A stretch of 64,000 bases of DNA from an uncultured Phycisphaerales bacterium. GTDB taxonomy: Bacteria > Planctomycetota > Phycisphaerae > Sedimentisphaerales > Anaerohalosphaeraceae. Shown here piece after piece: positions 48,420 through 56,420 of this stretch. Positions within the stretch are counted from its first letter, which is position 1; the number at the start of each line of letters is the position of its first letter. A model generated the notes under the pieces. The model saw only the letters and a list, made by a program, of their open reading frames with translations. It was not told the origin of the DNA and made no database searches. Location of the stretch: positions 62,001-126,000 of the forward strand of contig CALMLO010000033.1 in the NCBI GenBank assembly GCA_937868095.1, in the 5' to 3' direction. The position numbers were made by a program, and so were the translations under genes.

Positions 48420-49067
48420 ATGAGAATTGTTCTGGTAGATGATCATGAAATTGTTCGGGAGGGAATGTGCGCGCTTTTGCAAAGACGGCCGGATGTCGAA
48501 GTTGTCGGCCAGGCAGGAGACGGCCGAACCGCCGTTGCCCTTGTGCAGAAACTTCAGCCGGATATCGTCATTATGGATATCGGCATGCCCAATCTCAACG
48601 GGATTGACGCAACCCAGCAGATGCTGGCGGAGAACCCCCATCTGAAAATCCTGGCCTTATCTACCCATTCTGATGCGTGGATGGTGGCCAAGATGATTCG
48701 AGCGGGTGCCAAGGGGTACATGCTCAAAGAATCCGCCTTTTCGGAGTTGGCCAATGCCCTCGATGTCATTATGGAGGGCAAAACATACCTTTGTTCCAAA
48801 ATTGCCAGCGTTGTTTTTACCGATTATGTCAACATGCTCACCAACCCAAACTGGAAACTTGGGGAACTGCTCACCACTCGCGAACGGGAAGTCCTTCAGC
48901 TGGTTGCCGAGGGGCGTACGACAAGACAAATCGCCCAAATCCTTGGTTTGAGCCCCAAAACGGTGGATTCTCACCGCGACCACATTATGAAGAAACTGAA
49001 CATTCGCACAGTGGCGGGACTGACTAAATACGCCATCCAGGAAGGACTGACCTCTCACAGCCCGTAG
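48420..49067 (+). CDS. NarL/FixJ-type response regulator
   Basis: A 215-residue protein. The receiver domain (1-120) has the acidic pair VDDHE, the phosphoacceptor Asp53 in VIMDIGMPN, the Thr/Ser position in ALSTHSD and the Lys in GYMLKES. The C-terminal LuxR-type helix-turn-helix has LTTREREVLQLVAEGRTTRQ and GLSPKTVDSHRDHIMKKLNI. It should activate or repress genes on phosphorylation. A rho-independent terminator follows directly. The next gene on the strand encodes a kinase-like protein lacking phosphoacceptor residues, so its true kinase partner is probably elsewhere. Confidence 0.93.
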   Translation: MRIVLVDDHEIVREGMCALLQRRPDVEVVGQAGDGRTAVALVQKLQPDIVIMDIGMPNLNGIDATQQMLAENPHLKILALSTHSDAWMVAKMIRAGAKGYMLKESAFSELANALDVIMEGKTYLCSKIASVVFTDYVNMLTNPNWKLGELLTTREREVLQLVAEGRTTRQIAQILGLSPKTVDSHRDHIMKKLNIRTVAGLTKYAIQEGLTSHSP

Positions 49068-49331: not shown

Positions 49332-51314
49332 ATGACTCGTACAAATCGAACCTCAACGAAGCGCTCCTCGAAAGCAGCCGATGCGTCAGTGAACCGCCTG
49401 CCGTCTTCGGATGAGCAGAAACCGCTCGAGAACAAACTCGGGCCGGCTGAAGAGTCGCTCCGGGCCGTCTTTGATTGGGTTCCTCTGATGATTTGGGATT
49501 GCGGCCGAGGAGGAAAGATTCGCTATGTCAATCGATATGCGGCAGAGACGCTCGGCCTTTCCGCTGAGCAGCTCATCGGCAAAAACTATGATGAATTGTT
49601 TACCAAAGATGCAGAACAGACTGTTCAGGCGGCTCAAAAGGTGAGCCAGGGCAATCCCTCCCCTCTCAGGCAGCGAGGGACATTGCGGACGGCAAACGGC
49701 ATTCGATGGGTGCTGGCCGAGCGGGTTCCTTATCAGAATGCCAAGGGAGAAATTGCCGGTGAGATTATTTTTGCTCACGACATTACGGAGCAGAAGGCCG
49801 CAGAAACCCAATTGCAGCAGGCCGATCGTCAACTTCGTGCCGCTGCCCAGCGCATCCGTGTCCTGGCGGAAGAGGCCGCCGGTGCCGACCGAGCCAAAAG
49901 CGAATTTCTGGTACGCATCAGCCGGCAGCTGCGCGCACCGGTGAACTCCATTCTCAGTTTTGCGGAGATTCTGCACAAGGAGGAGCAGGACGAAGAACAT
50001 CGGCAGTATCTTCAGACGATTCAGCATTCAGCCGAAGCCCTGCTGTCGCTGGTTCAGAGTATTCTTGATTTTGTTAAAATCGAAGCCGGCAAAGTTCCTA
50101 TCCAACTGGTGCCCTGCCGCTGTGCGGAAATTGTCAAAGATGTGTTCGACGGGATGGGCTCAGCGGCCCGCGCCAAGGGGCTGGATTTTACCTGGGAATG
50201 CTCGCCGCAGCTGCCCGAACTCATTTATACCGACCCGATGCGGCTCCGCCAGTGTCTGCTGAATCTGCTCAGCAATGCCGTACAGTTTACGGAACAAGGC
50301 CGTGTTGCCATTCGGGTGTATCCGCAGGTTGCGGCCGGACAAAAACGGATTCGTTTTGATGTGGAAGATACCGGCATCGGAATTGAACCCTCCCGACAAA
50401 ATCTGATTTTTGAATCGTTTGCACAGGCCGAGCATGCGGATGGCCGTCCAAACGAAGGCACAGGTCTGGGGCTGGCCATAACCAGACGGCTGATCGGTCT
50501 GCTGGGCGGACATCTGGAATTGAGCAGTCGGCCCGGCAAAGGCAGCACCTTCTCTCTGATTCTTCCGTCGTTTGTGGAGCCGATGCAGAATACGGCCGCC
50601 GTGGACCCCAGCCGTTCTGAGGCGGCTGCCGCGGAGGATGACCGCCATATCGGATGTATCGGCAGGATTCTGCTGCTCGAAGATCATCCGCCGCGTCCGG
50701 TTCAGGCATCCCTGCTGCTTCGGCGGGCCGGTCTGGAAGTCGAGGTTGTCCCAACGCTCAGGGAAGCCCTGGAGCGGCTGCATCAGGTTTCCTGCAATCT
50801 GGTCCTGGTGGCGCTGGAGACGGTTTCGGAGGCCAAGAAGGCCGCCGCACGGCTGCGCGACTTTGATGAGCAGCTTCCGATTGTGGTCATCACCAGCGAT
50901 TCCTCGCGGAAGGCGGCCGAGCAGTTCAAGATTGCCGGCAGCAATGCCGTTCTCGTTGAGCCGGTCTCCCGTGTTCAGCTGTATGAAACGCTCCGGTCGT
51001 TTCTGTCGGTTCAGGCCGCCTCGGCGGTTCGGCAGGATTTTTTGGCTGACGAATCTGCCGACACCCTGCTCGAACGGCTGCCGGCGATGATGGAACAAAT
51101 GATGGAATCATACGCCCGAAGCGACTACGAAATGCTCTCCGATTATGCAAAAGTTTTGGCTGACCTGGGCGAGCAGTCTCATCATTCCTTACTGCTCGAG
51201 AAGGCCCGCCGTCTTGGGGACTATCTGACCGGCGGCGTTTTTCAGCCCGATGAACTGCACAAGCAGGTGGAGGAACTCAACGAACTCTGCCTGCAAATCA
51301 GTTTGGGCCGCTAA
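49332..51314 (+). CDS. Hybrid histidine-kinase-like protein lacking phosphoacceptor residues
   Basis: A 660-residue, probably cytoplasmic protein. Order: PAS (about 40-155), a short coiled linker, HisKA-like helix pair (185-250), HATPase (295-410), receiver-like domain (440-560) and a helical Hpt-like tail (580-655). The ATPase motifs are intact: NLLSNAVQF, DVEDTGIGIEPS and EGTGLGLAITRR. In the H-box, where the family has FLANxSHExRTP, this protein has FLVRISRQLRAP, so the phosphoacceptor His is Arg198. In the receiver the acceptor Asp is Ala494 and the conserved Lys is Glu (VLVEPVS). The Hpt-like tail has no AHxLKG-type His. It may act as an ATP-binding scaffold or regulator rather than a kinase. 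Confidence 0.85.
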   Translation: MTRTNRTSTKRSSKAADASVNRLPSSDEQKPLENKLGPAEESLRAVFDWVPLMIWDCGRGGKIRYVNRYAAETLGLSAEQLIGKNYDELFTKDAEQTVQAAQKVSQGNPSPLRQRGTLRTANGIRWVLAERVPYQNAKGEIAGEIIFAHDITEQKAAETQLQQADRQLRAAAQRIRVLAEEAAGADRAKSEFLVRISRQLRAPVNSILSFAEILHKEEQDEEHRQYLQTIQHSAEALLSLVQSILDFVKIEAGKVPIQLVPCRCAEIVKDVFDGMGSAARAKGLDFTWECSPQLPELIYTDPMRLRQCLLNLLSNAVQFTEQGRVAIRVYPQVAAGQKRIRFDVEDTGIGIEPSRQNLIFESFAQAEHADGRPNEGTGLGLAITRRLIGLLGGHLELSSRPGKGSTFSLILPSFVEPMQNTAAVDPSRSEAAAAEDDRHIGCIGRILLLEDHPPRPVQASLLLRRAGLEVEVVPTLREALERLHQVSCNLVLVALETVSEAKKAAARLRDFDEQLPIVVITSDSSRKAAEQFKIAGSNAVLVEPVSRVQLYETLRSFLSVQAASAVRQDFLADESADTLLERLPAMMEQMMESYARSDYEMLSDYAKVLADLGEQSHHSLLLEKARRLGDYLTGGVFQPDELHKQVEELNELCLQISLGR

Positions 51315-51328
51315 GCCCTTTCGAGCGG

Positions 51329-51832
51329 TTAATAAACATAGACCAGCCGAAGTTTGACATTCCATTCATTTTTGGCGCTGCCGGTTTTGTCCAGGGAGAT
51401 TTGTTCACACTGCAAATCCGGCCAGCGGGCCAGCATAGCGGAAAGAAAACCGGCCACGGTTTCAATTTTGACGGACTTGAAAGACAAATCGGCGCTTTTG
51501 CGTGTTTTGCCCTGCTGTTTGATGGCCTGGCGAACGTTCAGCGTATAACTGCCGGAAGGGATTCCCAATTCCTTTGTGAAGCGGTCCACTTCAGTTGTGA
51601 AATCAAAATCGCCTGATTGTCCGCTTTGCTCCTGATAGTTCACACGAGCCGGTTCGAGCTGCAGAATTTGCTCAATCAGTTTAGCCGCCTCGGCGTGTTG
51701 TTCTTTTTTGCTGTTCCATGCTTCCTTCTGACGCGGATAAAAGACCAGTCCGCTGGCCATGGCCCATCCGGCGGCCAGCACCGGCAGCAGAATAAAGAAG
51801 AAATCCGGCTGTTTCCAAAAATTCTTTTTCAT
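51329..51832 (-). CDS. GspM/PilO-like small membrane protein
   Basis: A 167-residue protein with one N-terminal membrane helix (FFFILLPVLAAGWAMASGLV), a coiled region and a small alpha/beta C-terminal domain (VETVAGFLSAMLARW-like segment, then NEWNVKLRLVYVY). Its size, topology and place at the end of a type II secretion operon match GspM or PilO. Start ATG at 51832 overlaps the upstream stop as ATGA, showing coupling to the GspL-like gene. The family is recognised by position and architecture rather than sequence identity. It ends 14 nt from the convergent kinase-like gene. Confidence 0.65.
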   Translation of the reverse strand: MKKNFWKQPDFFFILLPVLAAGWAMASGLVFYPRQKEAWNSKKEQHAEAAKLIEQILQLEPARVNYQEQSGQSGDFDFTTEVDRFTKELGIPSGSYTLNVRQAIKQQGKTRKSADLSFKSVKIETVAGFLSAMLARWPDLQCEQISLDKTGSAKNEWNVKLRLVYVY

Positions 51833-53265
51833 TGGCCTGCTCCTTCCTTTTTTGTCTGAAGGACAATCTCAAACTTATCCCGCGGCGGAGCAGGCGAAAT
51901 CTGGTTGCTCTCCACCTCGAGTTTGGGGTGTTTTTTAAATTCGTCCAAAAGTTGGAGCGTACTCCTGCGGCCGTTTGTGTCTCCCTGCAGCCGAAGGGCT
52001 CGTTCTGTAATGGAAATCTGCTGTACCTGAAAATCGACCGACGGCGGCGTCTTTATAAGTGCTTCGAGCAGAAAAGTAAGCCGCGCGGGCACCGAGTTAT
52101 CATCGCCGGTGCCGAATCCTTCCTGCCGCTGCCGCACCTGGCGAAGCACATTTCGCAGACGTGTCAGGATGGGCTGATTGGGCGGGGGCTTTTGGCCGTA
52201 CATGCAGCCCTTGTAGTCGGCGAGCAGTTTGTCATCGAGCCGGGCAATATAGGTTTGGAGCCGCAGCGATTTCATCTGAAAATAAAGACCGATGGACACA
52301 AGAATAACCGTCAGGGAGATGCTGATCAGCCGCAGCGATTTCTGAAGCATTTTTCTCTGTCCCTGATAGGGCAAAAAATCCCGGCGGAAGTCTGCCTTGC
52401 GGCTCCGATGAAGAGAAGATAAGGCCGCTCCCCAAGCCGCCGCGGCCTGAATCGGATCGCCCTGCTCGCCGGCCGGCCATTCGAGATGTTCCGTTTTGAC
52501 CGGATAGGATATTTTCTGAGCAAGCGCCTCCGGCTGGACCTGCTCTGTCTCGCCGGTCAAAATCAGGGATTCAACCGGTTCGCTCGACGCCCAGCCGGCC
52601 AAGGTGAGCTGAATCTGGCCGGCCAGTTGAGGAACAAGGTCTTCGCCCCTGACCAGCCCGACCCGCCGAAAATAAACCGCCCGTCCCTTGTTGGCGTTTC
52701 GCAAAAAGAGACATTGGGTCCCGCAGAGCCACACAAACAGATTGCGGCTGTCCTGGAACGAGGGTGATTTCTGTTCGAGAGCACGGGCCAGCGAGACGGC
52801 CTCCGGCTCCATCAGCACCGGGTCGGTTCCTTCCGCCTGAAGGTCCAGCAGCAGATTGGTAAGCGTCTGGCGGTCGGCGGCGTAAACCATCACCTCTGCT
52901 CCCTGCGGATGGGTGTGAAGAATCTCGTAGGCCACCGCCAGCGCAGCAGCATCGGCGGCAGCGGCTTCTTCCGCGTCAAACTTGATGGTATGGTCAATCT
53001 GGCGGGGGTCAGAAAAGGACGAACGCACCGGATACTGAGCATAAAAATCACTGCGAAGAGAAACAACCGCCCCTTCCGTCGGCAGATTTTTGGAGCGGAT
53101 TGCCCGCCCAATGGCGGCGCCGAGCGACAGCGCCCCTGAGGCGGACGAGTCGGCGGCTGCGCGGAAACAATCAATGACAGAAGCATCCGGTTTGCTGGAG
53201 TCAATCACAGCAACCGTCGCTTCCTGCCGGCTGACGGCTATTCCTAAAACAAGTTTGGGCTCCAC
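51829..53265 (-). CDS. GspL-like protein (PilM/actin-like domain plus PilN-like domain)
   Basis: A 478-residue protein. The first ~290 residues form an actin-like fold as in PilM/GspL (LGIAVSRQEATVAVIDSS, VYAADRQTLTNLLLDLQ, LAGWASSEPVESLILTG). A single membrane helix (LRLISISLTVILVSIGLYF) and a small periplasmic region (VDFQVQQISITERALRLQGD) follow. It would link the ATPase to the inner membrane platform. Start is GTG at 53265, with GGAGAG close upstream. It follows the GspK-like gene by 16 nt. Confidence 0.75.
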   Translation of the reverse strand: MEPKLVLGIAVSRQEATVAVIDSSKPDASVIDCFRAAADSSASGALSLGAAIGRAIRSKNLPTEGAVVSLRSDFYAQYPVRSSFSDPRQIDHTIKFDAEEAAAADAAALAVAYEILHTHPQGAEVMVYAADRQTLTNLLLDLQAEGTDPVLMEPEAVSLARALEQKSPSFQDSRNLFVWLCGTQCLFLRNANKGRAVYFRRVGLVRGEDLVPQLAGQIQLTLAGWASSEPVESLILTGETEQVQPEALAQKISYPVKTEHLEWPAGEQGDPIQAAAAWGAALSSLHRSRKADFRRDFLPYQGQRKMLQKSLRLISISLTVILVSIGLYFQMKSLRLQTYIARLDDKLLADYKGCMYGQKPPPNQPILTRLRNVLRQVRQRQEGFGTGDDNSVPARLTFLLEALIKTPPSVDFQVQQISITERALRLQGDTNGRRSTLQLLDEFKKHPKLEVESNQISPAPPRDKFEIVLQTKKEGAGQ

Positions 53266-53281
53266 AGTGGCTCTCCTATGG

Positions 53282-54679
53282 TTAACGGCCGTAAAGCACA
53301 GCCAGGGTTTCTACTTTTTTCTGGTCTTTAAAAACCGTTGCCGCCGCCATACATCGGGCATTCCCGCAGCAGCTGGTAATCCGAATTTGGAAGAAAGAAC
53401 TTTGCGTCGTCAAATAAGGGGTCGCCGCCCGAATCTGCTGGGTCTCTTCCGGAAGCAATTCTATCAGCTCGTTGAGTGTTTTAAAAGGTTTTGACTGACG
53501 CTGCTGGATGACGGCATCTGCAATTTTTTTCGGCTCGCCTGTCAGCGTGAAAGCCGCCTCGAGCACCTGCCGCGGGGCGGTATTGATATTGATTTCCTGC
53601 GAACCCCATAAGGCCAGATACCGCAGGGGGGATTCATTTCTGTCGCCGGTGTCCCGACGGCTGCGGCCGAGACTTTCCAGGTCCAGCAGGGAACTGTGAA
53701 ACAGTTTGCCGAAGTCGGCGGCGTTGGCAATCGCAGGCCGAAGGACGTCGCTGCTTTGAGACGCCGTCTGCGCGGTCTGCTGAGCGGACTGGCCGGGAAT
53801 CTGACGGGAGGTGCGAAGAGGCGAGGAGGCCGGGGATGCACCCGCAGCCGGAGCGGCGGTTGAGGAAAGACGCGATTTGATCAGTATCGGCTGCGGATCG
53901 ATGACAAAAGTTTTCTGTTCCTGAATCTGTTTGCACTGTTTTTGAAGGTCTTCGATTTCCTCCGGCTCCATCGACATCCATTCGCAAAAGGTGGTCAGAG
54001 CCGCCTGGGCGGCCTTGTTGGAGGATACAGCCCAGCCCAGCGGCATTTTGGCGTTTTCATCTTCAATCTCGATGGTGACGGCACACTCGCCCAGCGTCAG
54101 TTCAATCGGTTTGGAAACCAGCGGCCAGGGCACACCGTAAGGCCCGGGCACCTTGAGTTTCAAAGGGTCAATTGGCGCAGAAGCCGGCTCGGCTTCTGCC
54201 TCCATGCCGGCATTGGGGTCGGTCATTCGGCGGACTAATTTGGCCAGCAGCTCCGTCAGCGAGGGCTCTTCCTCGGGTTGGGTCAGAGCGGAATCTTCTT
54301 CAGAAAGGCCGGACAAGTCCAGCACCTGCTGAAGTTTGTCTTCCTCGGCTGTATCCAGCCAGGTCTGAAGATAAGCCGCATAGTCTTCCTGAGGCAGCCA
54401 GAACAAATCGGAAAAGTCCGGCAGCCCTTCCCGCGAAACCACCTTGTACTGCCGATCCGGCAGAACCGCCAGAACATACTTAAGGGCCGAGTCGCACGCA
54501 TACCGTGCCTCCTGATAGTCGATGCCGTAGTCAGCCCTGCGCCGGCTTTGTTTGATGCGCAGCGTCAGGGCCGTGGTCAGGGCCGTAAGCACTACCAGAA
54601 TCATCAGCACGACCACCAGCACAATGCCGCGGCATCTGCGGCCGCTTGCCCAGCAGGTTGTTCTGTATTTTGCTTTCAA
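53282..54679 (-). CDS. GspK-like minor pseudopilin
   Basis: A 465-residue protein. The N-terminus ends in GIVLVVVLMILVVLTALTTAL, a prepilin-type hydrophobic helix after RCRG. The long globular part includes insert regions rich in Pro/Ala/Gln. A helix-hairpin-helix-like segment (EININTAPRQVLEAAF) and FKTLNELIELLPEE correspond to the SAM-like domain of GspK. The start is TTG at 54679, directly after the upstream TAA, with AAGGA before it, so the genes are coupled. GspK caps the pseudopilus tip together with GspI and GspJ. Confidence 0.8.
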   Translation of the reverse strand: MKAKYRTTCWASGRRCRGIVLVVVLMILVVLTALTTALTLRIKQSRRRADYGIDYQEARYACDSALKYVLAVLPDRQYKVVSREGLPDFSDLFWLPQEDYAAYLQTWLDTAEEDKLQQVLDLSGLSEEDSALTQPEEEPSLTELLAKLVRRMTDPNAGMEAEAEPASAPIDPLKLKVPGPYGVPWPLVSKPIELTLGECAVTIEIEDENAKMPLGWAVSSNKAAQAALTTFCEWMSMEPEEIEDLQKQCKQIQEQKTFVIDPQPILIKSRLSSTAAPAAGASPASSPLRTSRQIPGQSAQQTAQTASQSSDVLRPAIANAADFGKLFHSSLLDLESLGRSRRDTGDRNESPLRYLALWGSQEININTAPRQVLEAAFTLTGEPKKIADAVIQQRQSKPFKTLNELIELLPEETQQIRAATPYLTTQSSFFQIRITSCCGNARCMAAATVFKDQKKVETLAVLYGR

Positions 54680-55480
54680 TTATCCTTCGCGTTCTTCCAG
54701 GTTGGTTTGGTTCGGTTCTTCGACGGGCGATTCTATCGGCATAAAATCGTTCACGTCCATCACTTTCGGCTGAAATCGATAAGCGATGGTGCGGACTCGG
54801 TCGATGGCAACCGTCCGCCAGATGATTTTTTCTTCGGGAACAGCCCACCGCCCATCCAAATCCTCCACCATCGGCGCAAACGAGGCACCAATCCGAAGCC
54901 CCTTCGGCAGCTCCGTCTGCATCCAGGACGAAAGGAACTTCTGATTATTGCAGGCCTCGACTTTGAAGAAAGTCAGGCCGGCGGCCGTTGGAATAAACAA
55001 AGCCCGTTCTTCAACGGATTTGTTTTCTTCGAGGACCTTGTCTTCGACATTCAGACCGCTGTGCATCCGGTACAGAATCAGCCCGCCCTCGTCCATATCA
55101 TAGGCCGTCTGCCAGACGACCCGTTCGTAGGTGCGCGGCTGGGGGTTTTGGGCCTGGCCGCCGAAATATTTTGATTCGAGCGTAAGTTGGGCCGAGGCGA
55201 AACCGTTGTCGATTTTGTTGCGGACCTGGACGGCGGCATCAAAGCCGGGGGCGGCAATCCGGTCAATATCCTCCGCGATGCGCTGAAGGACCTCATTGGC
55301 CATCCGGGTTTCGTCCAACTTGTCCATAATCACGGCCGCATCGCTGCGCAGGCGCTGATACACCCCCAGAGCACTGGTAAGAATCATCGCGGCCAGAGCT
55401 ACAACCACCATCATCTCCACCAGGGAGAAGCCGTTGGCCTGAACAGATTGTTTATGGGATACGGTCATATTTTCAATCAC
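54680..55480 (-). CDS. GspJ-like minor pseudopilin
   Basis: A 266-residue protein with the prepilin motif NGFSLVEMMVVVALAAMILT (cleavage after Gly, Glu at +5). The globular part contains QRLRSDAAVIMDKLDETR and two regions with ERVVWQTAYDMDEGGLI. It overlaps the GspI stop by 8 nt (start GTG 55480; ATG 55468 is an alternative). The next gene starts at its stop codon. Confidence 0.82.
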   Translation of the reverse strand: MIENMTVSHKQSVQANGFSLVEMMVVVALAAMILTSALGVYQRLRSDAAVIMDKLDETRMANEVLQRIAEDIDRIAAPGFDAAVQVRNKIDNGFASAQLTLESKYFGGQAQNPQPRTYERVVWQTAYDMDEGGLILYRMHSGLNVEDKVLEENKSVEERALFIPTAAGLTFFKVEACNNQKFLSSWMQTELPKGLRIGASFAPMVEDLDGRWAVPEEKIIWRTVAIDRVRTIAYRFQPKVMDVNDFMPIESPVEEPNQTNLEEREG

Positions 55481-56420
55481 AGCAGCACCCGGTCAGCTGA
55501 CAGATAATGGGTTTCAGAGAAGGATCGATTTTGCTGCAGTCAAACGGACAATCCGGCTCCTGAGGAGACGGCTGCTCTTGAGTATCCGTCGTCGGCTGCG
55601 AATCGTCCGGCTTGGTTTCTGTCGGATTTTCGGCAGGGATTTCCGCCGGCCCATCCGTTCCTGAACCGGAACCGGGCAGCAGTTGGGGATTGGCATACAA
55701 ATAAGCAATGCACTCGTTGAGGCGGTCGAAATCCACCCCCAGCGATTGGAGAAATGCGGACTTGGCTTCTTCGAGTGTCTGAAGCCATTGGTCATACTCT
55801 TTGCCCAGGCCGTTCTGAATCAGGTAATTGATTTTTTCCCGCCGCTGCCGCTGGATGAAGTTCTCGTATGCCGCCGCATCCAGCCCCGCCTGCTCCAGGC
55901 AGACTTTGGTCATTTCCTCCGTGGGGTCTTCCTGGGGGCCGTACAGTTCCTCGAGAATCTTTTCTTCGAGGGCCTGCTGCTGGAGAATCTGCTTAATCTG
56001 CTGAGCCGACAGACCGGTCAGCCAGTGTTCGAGCCGAACGGCCTGTTCCTGATTGGCTTTGTCGTAGTAATAGGCGGCACTGACCGCCCGAATCCACATC
56101 TTATTGCTGATCGGTTCGTAAAAGGGCTCGACCGTCAGCTCCCAGCGGATGTCGGGGTATCGCTCACTCCAGCCGGAGTCGGCCTGGTCGCTGATGGTAG
56201 TAACCGTCAGGAGCGACTCAAGATTTTCACGGGCGATTTCGAAGGCCTGCCGACGCCCCTGAATTTCCAGCGTTGCCTGGACGGCATTGTTCATTACGAT
56301 CAGCGCGGAGGCCAGCAGCCCCGCCAGAATCGCCAGCGCGGCAGCAATCTCCACCAGCGTAAAGCCGCCGGCTCTCAAGGCCGGCTGAATGGGAACGAAT
56401 TGTTTAGAATCGCAATGCAT
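55473..56420 (-). CDS. GspI-like minor pseudopilin with Cys-rich tail
   Basis: A 315-residue protein with prepilin segment GGFTLVEIAAALAILAG. It is more than twice the usual ~125-residue GspI length. A helical region around 130-235 is followed by a linker rich in Pro/Glu/Asp/Ser/Thr (GSGSGTDGPAEIPAE) and a C-terminus with six Cys: CPFDCSKIDPSLKP and IICQLTGCCCD. The tail may bind metal or form disulfides; function unknown. ATG at 56420 overlaps the GspH stop by 17 nt. Confidence 0.78.
   Translation of the reverse strand: MHCDSKQFVPIQPALRAGGFTLVEIAAALAILAGLLASALIVMNNAVQATLEIQGRRQAFEIARENLESLLTVTTISDQADSGWSERYPDIRWELTVEPFYEPISNKMWIRAVSAAYYYDKANQEQAVRLEHWLTGLSAQQIKQILQQQALEEKILEELYGPQEDPTEEMTKVCLEQAGLDAAAYENFIQRQRREKINYLIQNGLGKEYDQWLQTLEEAKSAFLQSLGVDFDRLNECIAYLYANPQLLPGSGSGTDGPAEIPAENPTETKPDDSQPTTDTQEQPSPQEPDCPFDCSKIDPSLKPIICQLTGCCCD

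Follow-up and report, generated by a model that had tools for sequence, protein, structure and literature searches.

The best known pseudokinase of the histidine kinase type is DivL of Caulobacter crescentus, a HisKA-type protein with a replaced acceptor histidine that lacks both kinase and phosphatase activity, binds a response regulator and modulates another kinase (PMC4211667). In Streptococcus, the regulation exerted by RocA is independent of autophosphorylation and passes via the partner kinase CovS (PMC7028121), and the hybrid kinase ShkA contains a receiver, REC1, that is without phosphorylation residues (PMC7010744, PMC12632262). In the case of ChrS from Corynebacterium glutamicum, an inactive kinase variant still influences signalling and forms a heterodimer with a related kinase (PMC9491836). 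The base rate of HisKA domains without the histidine is 0.9% (PMC12632262), and because of this the loss of the H-box histidine is uncommon but unsurprising by itself.

Here we analyzed a gene coding for a protein of 660 amino acids (positions 49332..51314, + strand) in a window of 64,000 nucleotides, this being the whole stretch of DNA under study, from an uncultured Phycisphaerales bacterium. The protein is predicted to be a soluble PAS hybrid kinase homologue and resembles DivL in being of the HisKA type with the phospho-acceptor histidine replaced. In DivL, however, the replacing tyrosine is conserved across alphaproteobacteria, the partners are known and no pseudo-receiver or Hpt-like tail has been described, whereas here an arginine is found in one species, its congeners have histidine, and the protein carries both a pseudo-receiver and an Hpt-like tail. 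RocA is a kinase homologue whose regulation needs no autophosphorylation, as the sequence would predict for the role of the protein studied here, but it is membrane-bound and has histidine at the acceptor position. ShkA shares the pseudo-receiver within a hybrid kinase, but it is an active kinase with c-di-GMP as ligand and a live second receiver, which is absent here. The lesion in the ChrS variant was a frameshift in the CA domain that arose during laboratory evolution, and not the replacement of the acceptor histidine seen here. By analogy, the protein would be most like DivL or RocA in its working, the pseudo-receiver of ShkA offers a further precedent, and the protein probably joins the known kind of binding pseudokinases to which DivL and RocA belong. 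A literature search combining the taxon with histidine kinases yielded nothing on this system.

In DivL the sharing of the replacement across a whole class hides the order in which residues were lost. Here the steps can be read, as receiver and Hpt chemistry is missing throughout the genus, the histidine is missing in one species, and syntenic relatives with catalytic residues exist. The case thus offers a way to examine which features of a histidine kinase outlast phosphotransfer and whether a pseudo-receiver can carry output by itself; if the protein has truly been converted into a phosphorylation-independent regulator, the five congeners with catalytic residues would be natural controls.

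Domain architecture and phosphotransfer residues

The gene is a single open frame with neither stop codon nor frameshift, and its Pfam domains and its synteny in six of six species identify it as a pseudo-histidine kinase gene of the order PAS, DHp, CA, pseudo-receiver and Hpt-like tail. Pfam matches above the cut-offs cover residues 51-151 (PAS), 188-253 (HisKA), 301-412 (HATPase_c) and 446-554 (Response_reg), the last of them being marginal (31.0 bits for a cut-off of 30.2). Scores relative to those of the congeners differ among domains: the PAS domain (residues 40-155; 49449..49796, +) scores 52.4 bits (58-62 in congeners), the DHp/HisKA domain (residues 186-255; 49887..50096, +) drops to 54.7 bits (84-92), and the CA/HATPase_c domain (residues 256-415; 50097..50576, +) reaches 94.5 bits (95-101). 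The AlphaFold model, built with 15 sequences (mean pLDDT of 73), predicts a folded PAS domain, two long DHp helices, a CA domain whose lid is poorly ordered (pLDDT < 50 at residues 366-376), a receiver of alternating strands and helices, and a helical tail. When modelled alone, the tail (residues 575-660; 51054..51311, +) was again helical (mean pLDDT of 79) and its top PDB matches were Hpt domains (probability 1.00, TM 0.71), yet with a non-significant E value of 0.14. The Pfam Hpt profile gave no match to the tail of this protein, and a weak match, below the cut-off, to that of one sister genus (E = 7e-4).

Examination of the residues that carry phosphotransfer identified losses in every domain that would need them. 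The H-box (codons 198-202; 49923..49937, +) reads R-Q-L-R-A in place of H-E-L-R-T, with Arg198 (codon CGG, 49923-49925) at the histidine position accompanied by E199Q, which removes the acid, and T202A, which removes the phosphatase threonine. Autophosphorylation of HisKA kinases depends on the acid that follows the histidine, and their phosphatase activity on the threonine four residues beyond that histidine. Mutations at the equivalent positions of CovS, E281A and T284A, served as kinase-dead and phosphatase-dead alleles (PMC7028121). In the pseudo-receiver (residues 442-558; 50655..51005, +), which is well conserved among the six species, Ala494 (50811-50813) takes the place of the aspartate and Glu543 (50958-50960) that of the lysine, and the acid pair has changed from DD to ED; in the tail, Lys607 occupies the position of the Hpt histidine, and a phosphorylatable Hpt histidine was found in none of the six species of the genus. 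Comparison of residues hence bore out an initial annotation, made from this DNA alone, on all of the replacements that it had named in the H-box, receiver and tail. Its description of the ATP-binding motifs as intact was overstated: the core residues are kept (N311, N315, D346, G348, G350, G376, G378, G380), but the N-box lysine has become glutamine (K318Q) and the lid reads G-R-P-N-E-G-T-G-L-G where the nearest relatives have C-R-K-Y-G-G-T-G-L-G (Y374N, G375E).

Of the residues of an active phosphorelay hybrid kinase, the DHp histidine, the receiver aspartate and lysine and the Hpt histidine are all four missing. The protein agrees with the sequence definition of a pseudo-histidine kinase, with HisKA and HATPase_c recognizable and the phospho-acceptor histidine absent, and its receiver with that of a pseudo-receiver, namely a PF00072 match without the key phosphorylation residues. 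From motif chemistry, the protein should have neither kinase nor phosphatase activity. We also considered a kinase retaining phosphatase activity alone and judged it unlikely, as T202A removes the phosphatase threonine.

Orthologues, neighbouring genes and the order of losses

A syntenic orthologue is present in all six sequenced species of the genus, the five others being 54-63% identical to the protein studied here, and the gene order (NarL-type regulator, kinase, and then a convergent type II secretion/pseudopilin-like cluster) is shared by the six. An assembly or frameshift artefact is excluded by this order being kept on a contig of 137 kb and by the many scattered codon substitutions; a paralogue mistaken for an orthologue is excluded by synteny and by the neighbour-gene and kinase trees, which agree on the relations between species. 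All five congeners have kept the H-box histidine, glutamate and threonine, together with the N-box lysine and the Tyr-Gly-Gly of the lid (K318, Y374 and G375 being invariant among them), and the histidine is present in all 15 other family homologues compared; a conserved replacement of the histidine of the DivL kind was therefore not found in this genus. In contrast, the receiver has alanine or asparagine at position 494 and glutamate at position 543 in six of six species. Elsewhere in the family, one genus has the receiver aspartate and lysine and a histidine at the Hpt position, and another has kept the aspartate, with arginine for the lysine. The coiled-coil linker (residues 156-185; 49797..49886, +) lacks exactly seven residues, that is one heptad, before the DHp domain relative to all five congeners; such a deletion would keep the helix in register, and the remaining linker is unchanged at conserved positions.

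As judged by these comparisons, the pseudo-receiver is a property of the genus and the pseudokinase state is private to this species. Because the receiver and Hpt losses are common to the genus and the loss of the histidine is confined to one species, the losses entered in at least two steps and not in a single event, the simplest order being a phosphorelay-type hybrid kinase that would have lost its receiver and Hpt residues by the time the genus radiated and its DHp residues in the lineage studied here. The initial annotation had taken the losses in three separate domains as joint signs of one repurposing, an argument that we reject since the receiver change is the older. It had proposed asking whether Arg198 and Ala494 are conserved in orthologues, which is so for the receiver position and not for Arg198, and it had named orthologues with histidine or aspartate and recent frameshifts as evidence against its reading: orthologues with the histidine exist, and the frame here is unbroken.

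The NarL-type response regulator (215 amino acids; 48420..49067, +; Pfam matches Response_reg and GerE) is a conserved neighbour and the likely original partner of the kinase. It adjoins the kinase in the six species and in several other genera, its receiver residues are intact, and it is 84-86% identical to the regulators of the three nearest congeners. It is present in 25 of the 39 family genomes, and in several genera it stands without the hybrid kinase alongside, so that other kinases can probably serve it and its phosphate donor may differ between genera. In two other genera (loci L149 and L150) a different, HATPase_c-like kinase fragment ends just upstream of it, hinting at a swap of the partner kinase.

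Downstream, the convergent secretion-like cluster (51329..56420, -; T2SSK and N_methyl matches, same order in the six species) was used as a control for evolutionary rates and as an anchor for synteny. Two of its proteins, of 167 and 478 amino acids (51329-53265, -), have no Pfam match and yet are conserved in the six species; judging from their place in the cluster, they could correspond to GspM- and GspL-like components.

Selective constraints and competing explanations

Constraint was estimated under a codon model written for this analysis that uses the same neutral branch lengths throughout the locus. With synonymous sites near saturation on the deeper branches, P values that hold the branch lengths fixed and one genome representing this species, the ω values on its branch were 0.83 for PAS, 0.26 for the linker, 0.45 for DHp, 0.30 for CA, 0.15 for the receiver and 0.34 for the tail, the background values across the kinase domains ranging from 0.04 to 0.14. 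The acceleration is sharp in PAS (background ω = 0.04) and in DHp (0.06), and CA and the tail are also raised, whereas the receiver does not differ significantly from its background of 0.10. Values for the receiver, linker, CA and tail are far below 1 (P of 3e-5 or less), that for DHp also lies below 1, and that for PAS is not different from 1 (P = 0.14). A fit to the kinase gene alone reproduced this pattern. Fast evolution of the whole locus is excluded as its source, since the NarL-type regulator (ω = 0.067 for a background of 0.054) and four genes of the secretion cluster showed no significant departure from background; constraint on the regulator was unaltered when the kinase lost its histidine. 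Among alignment columns that do not vary in the five congeners, the protein studied here departs at 34 of 78 in PAS, at 16 of 45 in DHp, at 11 of 92 in CA, at 6 of 40 in the tail, at 2 of 59 in the receiver and at none of 18 in the linker.

The reading that we favour, to which we would give an even chance of being correct, is that of a pseudo-histidine kinase that works by binding and not by catalysis, is encoded next to an intact NarL-type regulator and has had its phosphorelay taken apart stepwise. The ancestor would have been a PAS-DHp-CA-receiver-Hpt hybrid kinase encoded beside the regulator. By the time the genus radiated, it had become a kinase with a pseudo-receiver and a tail without histidine, as comparison of the six species shows, and on the branch of this species alone it then acquired H198R, E199Q and T202A and an altered N-box lysine and lid, with PAS diverging fast. 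The resulting protein would neither phosphorylate nor dephosphorylate a partner; it would most likely act as a dimeric binding protein, with coiled coil, CA core, pseudo-receiver and tail kept for binding, and modulate either another histidine kinase or the neighbouring regulator, which would obtain its phosphate from elsewhere. Such a role is plausible because DivL and RocA regulate by binding without these activities (PMC4211667, PMC7028121), although a binding action that relies on the coiled-coil dimer and the conserved pseudo-receiver is less supported than the loss of catalysis. Weighing against binding, Arg198 occurs in no relative, so that the comparison gives no evidence of selection for the replacement as such, and an ω near 1 in PAS together with raised values in DHp, CA and the tail fits partial relaxation. 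A more specific version, in which a two-component kinase turned within one genus into a phosphorylation-independent regulator with a reshaped PAS domain and the inherited pseudo-receiver as its main output surface, we put forward tentatively and regard as rather unlikely.

Slow decay is a serious rival, which we consider possible though clearly short of probable: the kinase would be jobless in this lineage, PAS and DHp would be free of constraint with the rest to follow, and the open frame would be transient. It is consistent with the ω values of PAS and DHp and those of CA and the tail above background, with the joint loss of histidine, acid, threonine and N-box lysine, and with the life of the regulator without this kinase in several genera, where the kinase is dispensable; PAS evolves almost freely, and a single genome stands for the species. 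Against decay, the gene contains no stop codon or frameshift where about 17 stops would be expected on the branch if the whole gene were unconstrained, the receiver evolves at background ω, and a model in which all domains share a single neutral fraction is rejected (2ΔlnL = 59.6, 5 df, P ~ 1e-11). Every domain also fits its family profile better than neutral simulations matched for identity (104 against 57 bits in PAS, 97 against 73 in DHp, 223 against 166 in CA, 131 against 104 in the receiver and 90 against 50 in the tail), with no matched simulation reaching the real score in any domain; without matching, 7 of 300 simulations reached it in DHp, 21 in the receiver and 1 in the tail. Scores so far above those of the matched simulations show that selection for folding continues. 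The view of the initial annotation that this is not decay is hence mostly upheld, although the acceleration of PAS and DHp means that a relaxation of constraint has contributed; its selected repurposing is plausible, but the same two domains also fit relaxed constraint on input and catalysis with the rest of the protein retained.

The conserved core also allows for a CA domain that binds ATP and phosphorylates the histidine of another kinase in a heterodimer, for which the kept N, G1 and G2 residues, the nearly unchanged HATPase_c score, the presence of at least 12 other HisKA-type kinases in the genome and the known ChrS-HrrS heterodimer (PMC9491836) may be adduced; the loss of the N-box lysine and lid residues, the disorder predicted for the lid and a DHp dimer interface that is diverging too make it improbable in our view. 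We attach an equally small probability to a PAS domain that selection has adapted to a new ligand, the protein being then a new receptor and not a relic. The many changed PAS columns would suit it, as would a Pfam match and predicted fold that hold and a profile score well above that of neutral simulations of equal identity, but ω is not greater than 1, and a single sequence on a single branch does not allow positive selection to be told apart from partial relaxation. Least credible, and very improbable indeed, is a kinase still active on a non-canonical acceptor: the CA core is kept, but arginine cannot stand in for histidine in phosphotransfer chemistry, and the acid and the N-box lysine are lost as well.

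Other kinase-like proteins in the family

Outside the window, the same genome encodes a protein of 420 amino acids (L202:7338-8597, -; G000:C68) with HisKA, HATPase_c and receiver domains and without PAS, in which tyrosine stands for the histidine, the lid is altered and the receiver residues are intact. Orthologues (L182-L201) occur in 20 of the 39 family genomes, across seven genera, with a nearly invariant motif that has tyrosine (18 of 20) or phenylalanine (2 of 20) at the histidine position. Downstream, the same secretion ATPase gene (T2SSE and MshEN matches in this genome) comes next on the same strand in all seven loci examined, one of them cut by the contig end. We take the protein of 420 amino acids to be a pseudokinase that has a live receiver and is conserved across the family, and consider it a stronger candidate for selected repurposing than the kinase at 49332-51314. 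A further protein of 416 amino acids outside the window (L209:6260-7507, +; G000:C65; orthologues L176-L181), conserved in the six species of the genus, lacks a DHp domain; its HATPase_c domain is degenerate and precedes an intact receiver and an Hpt domain in which the histidine is kept.
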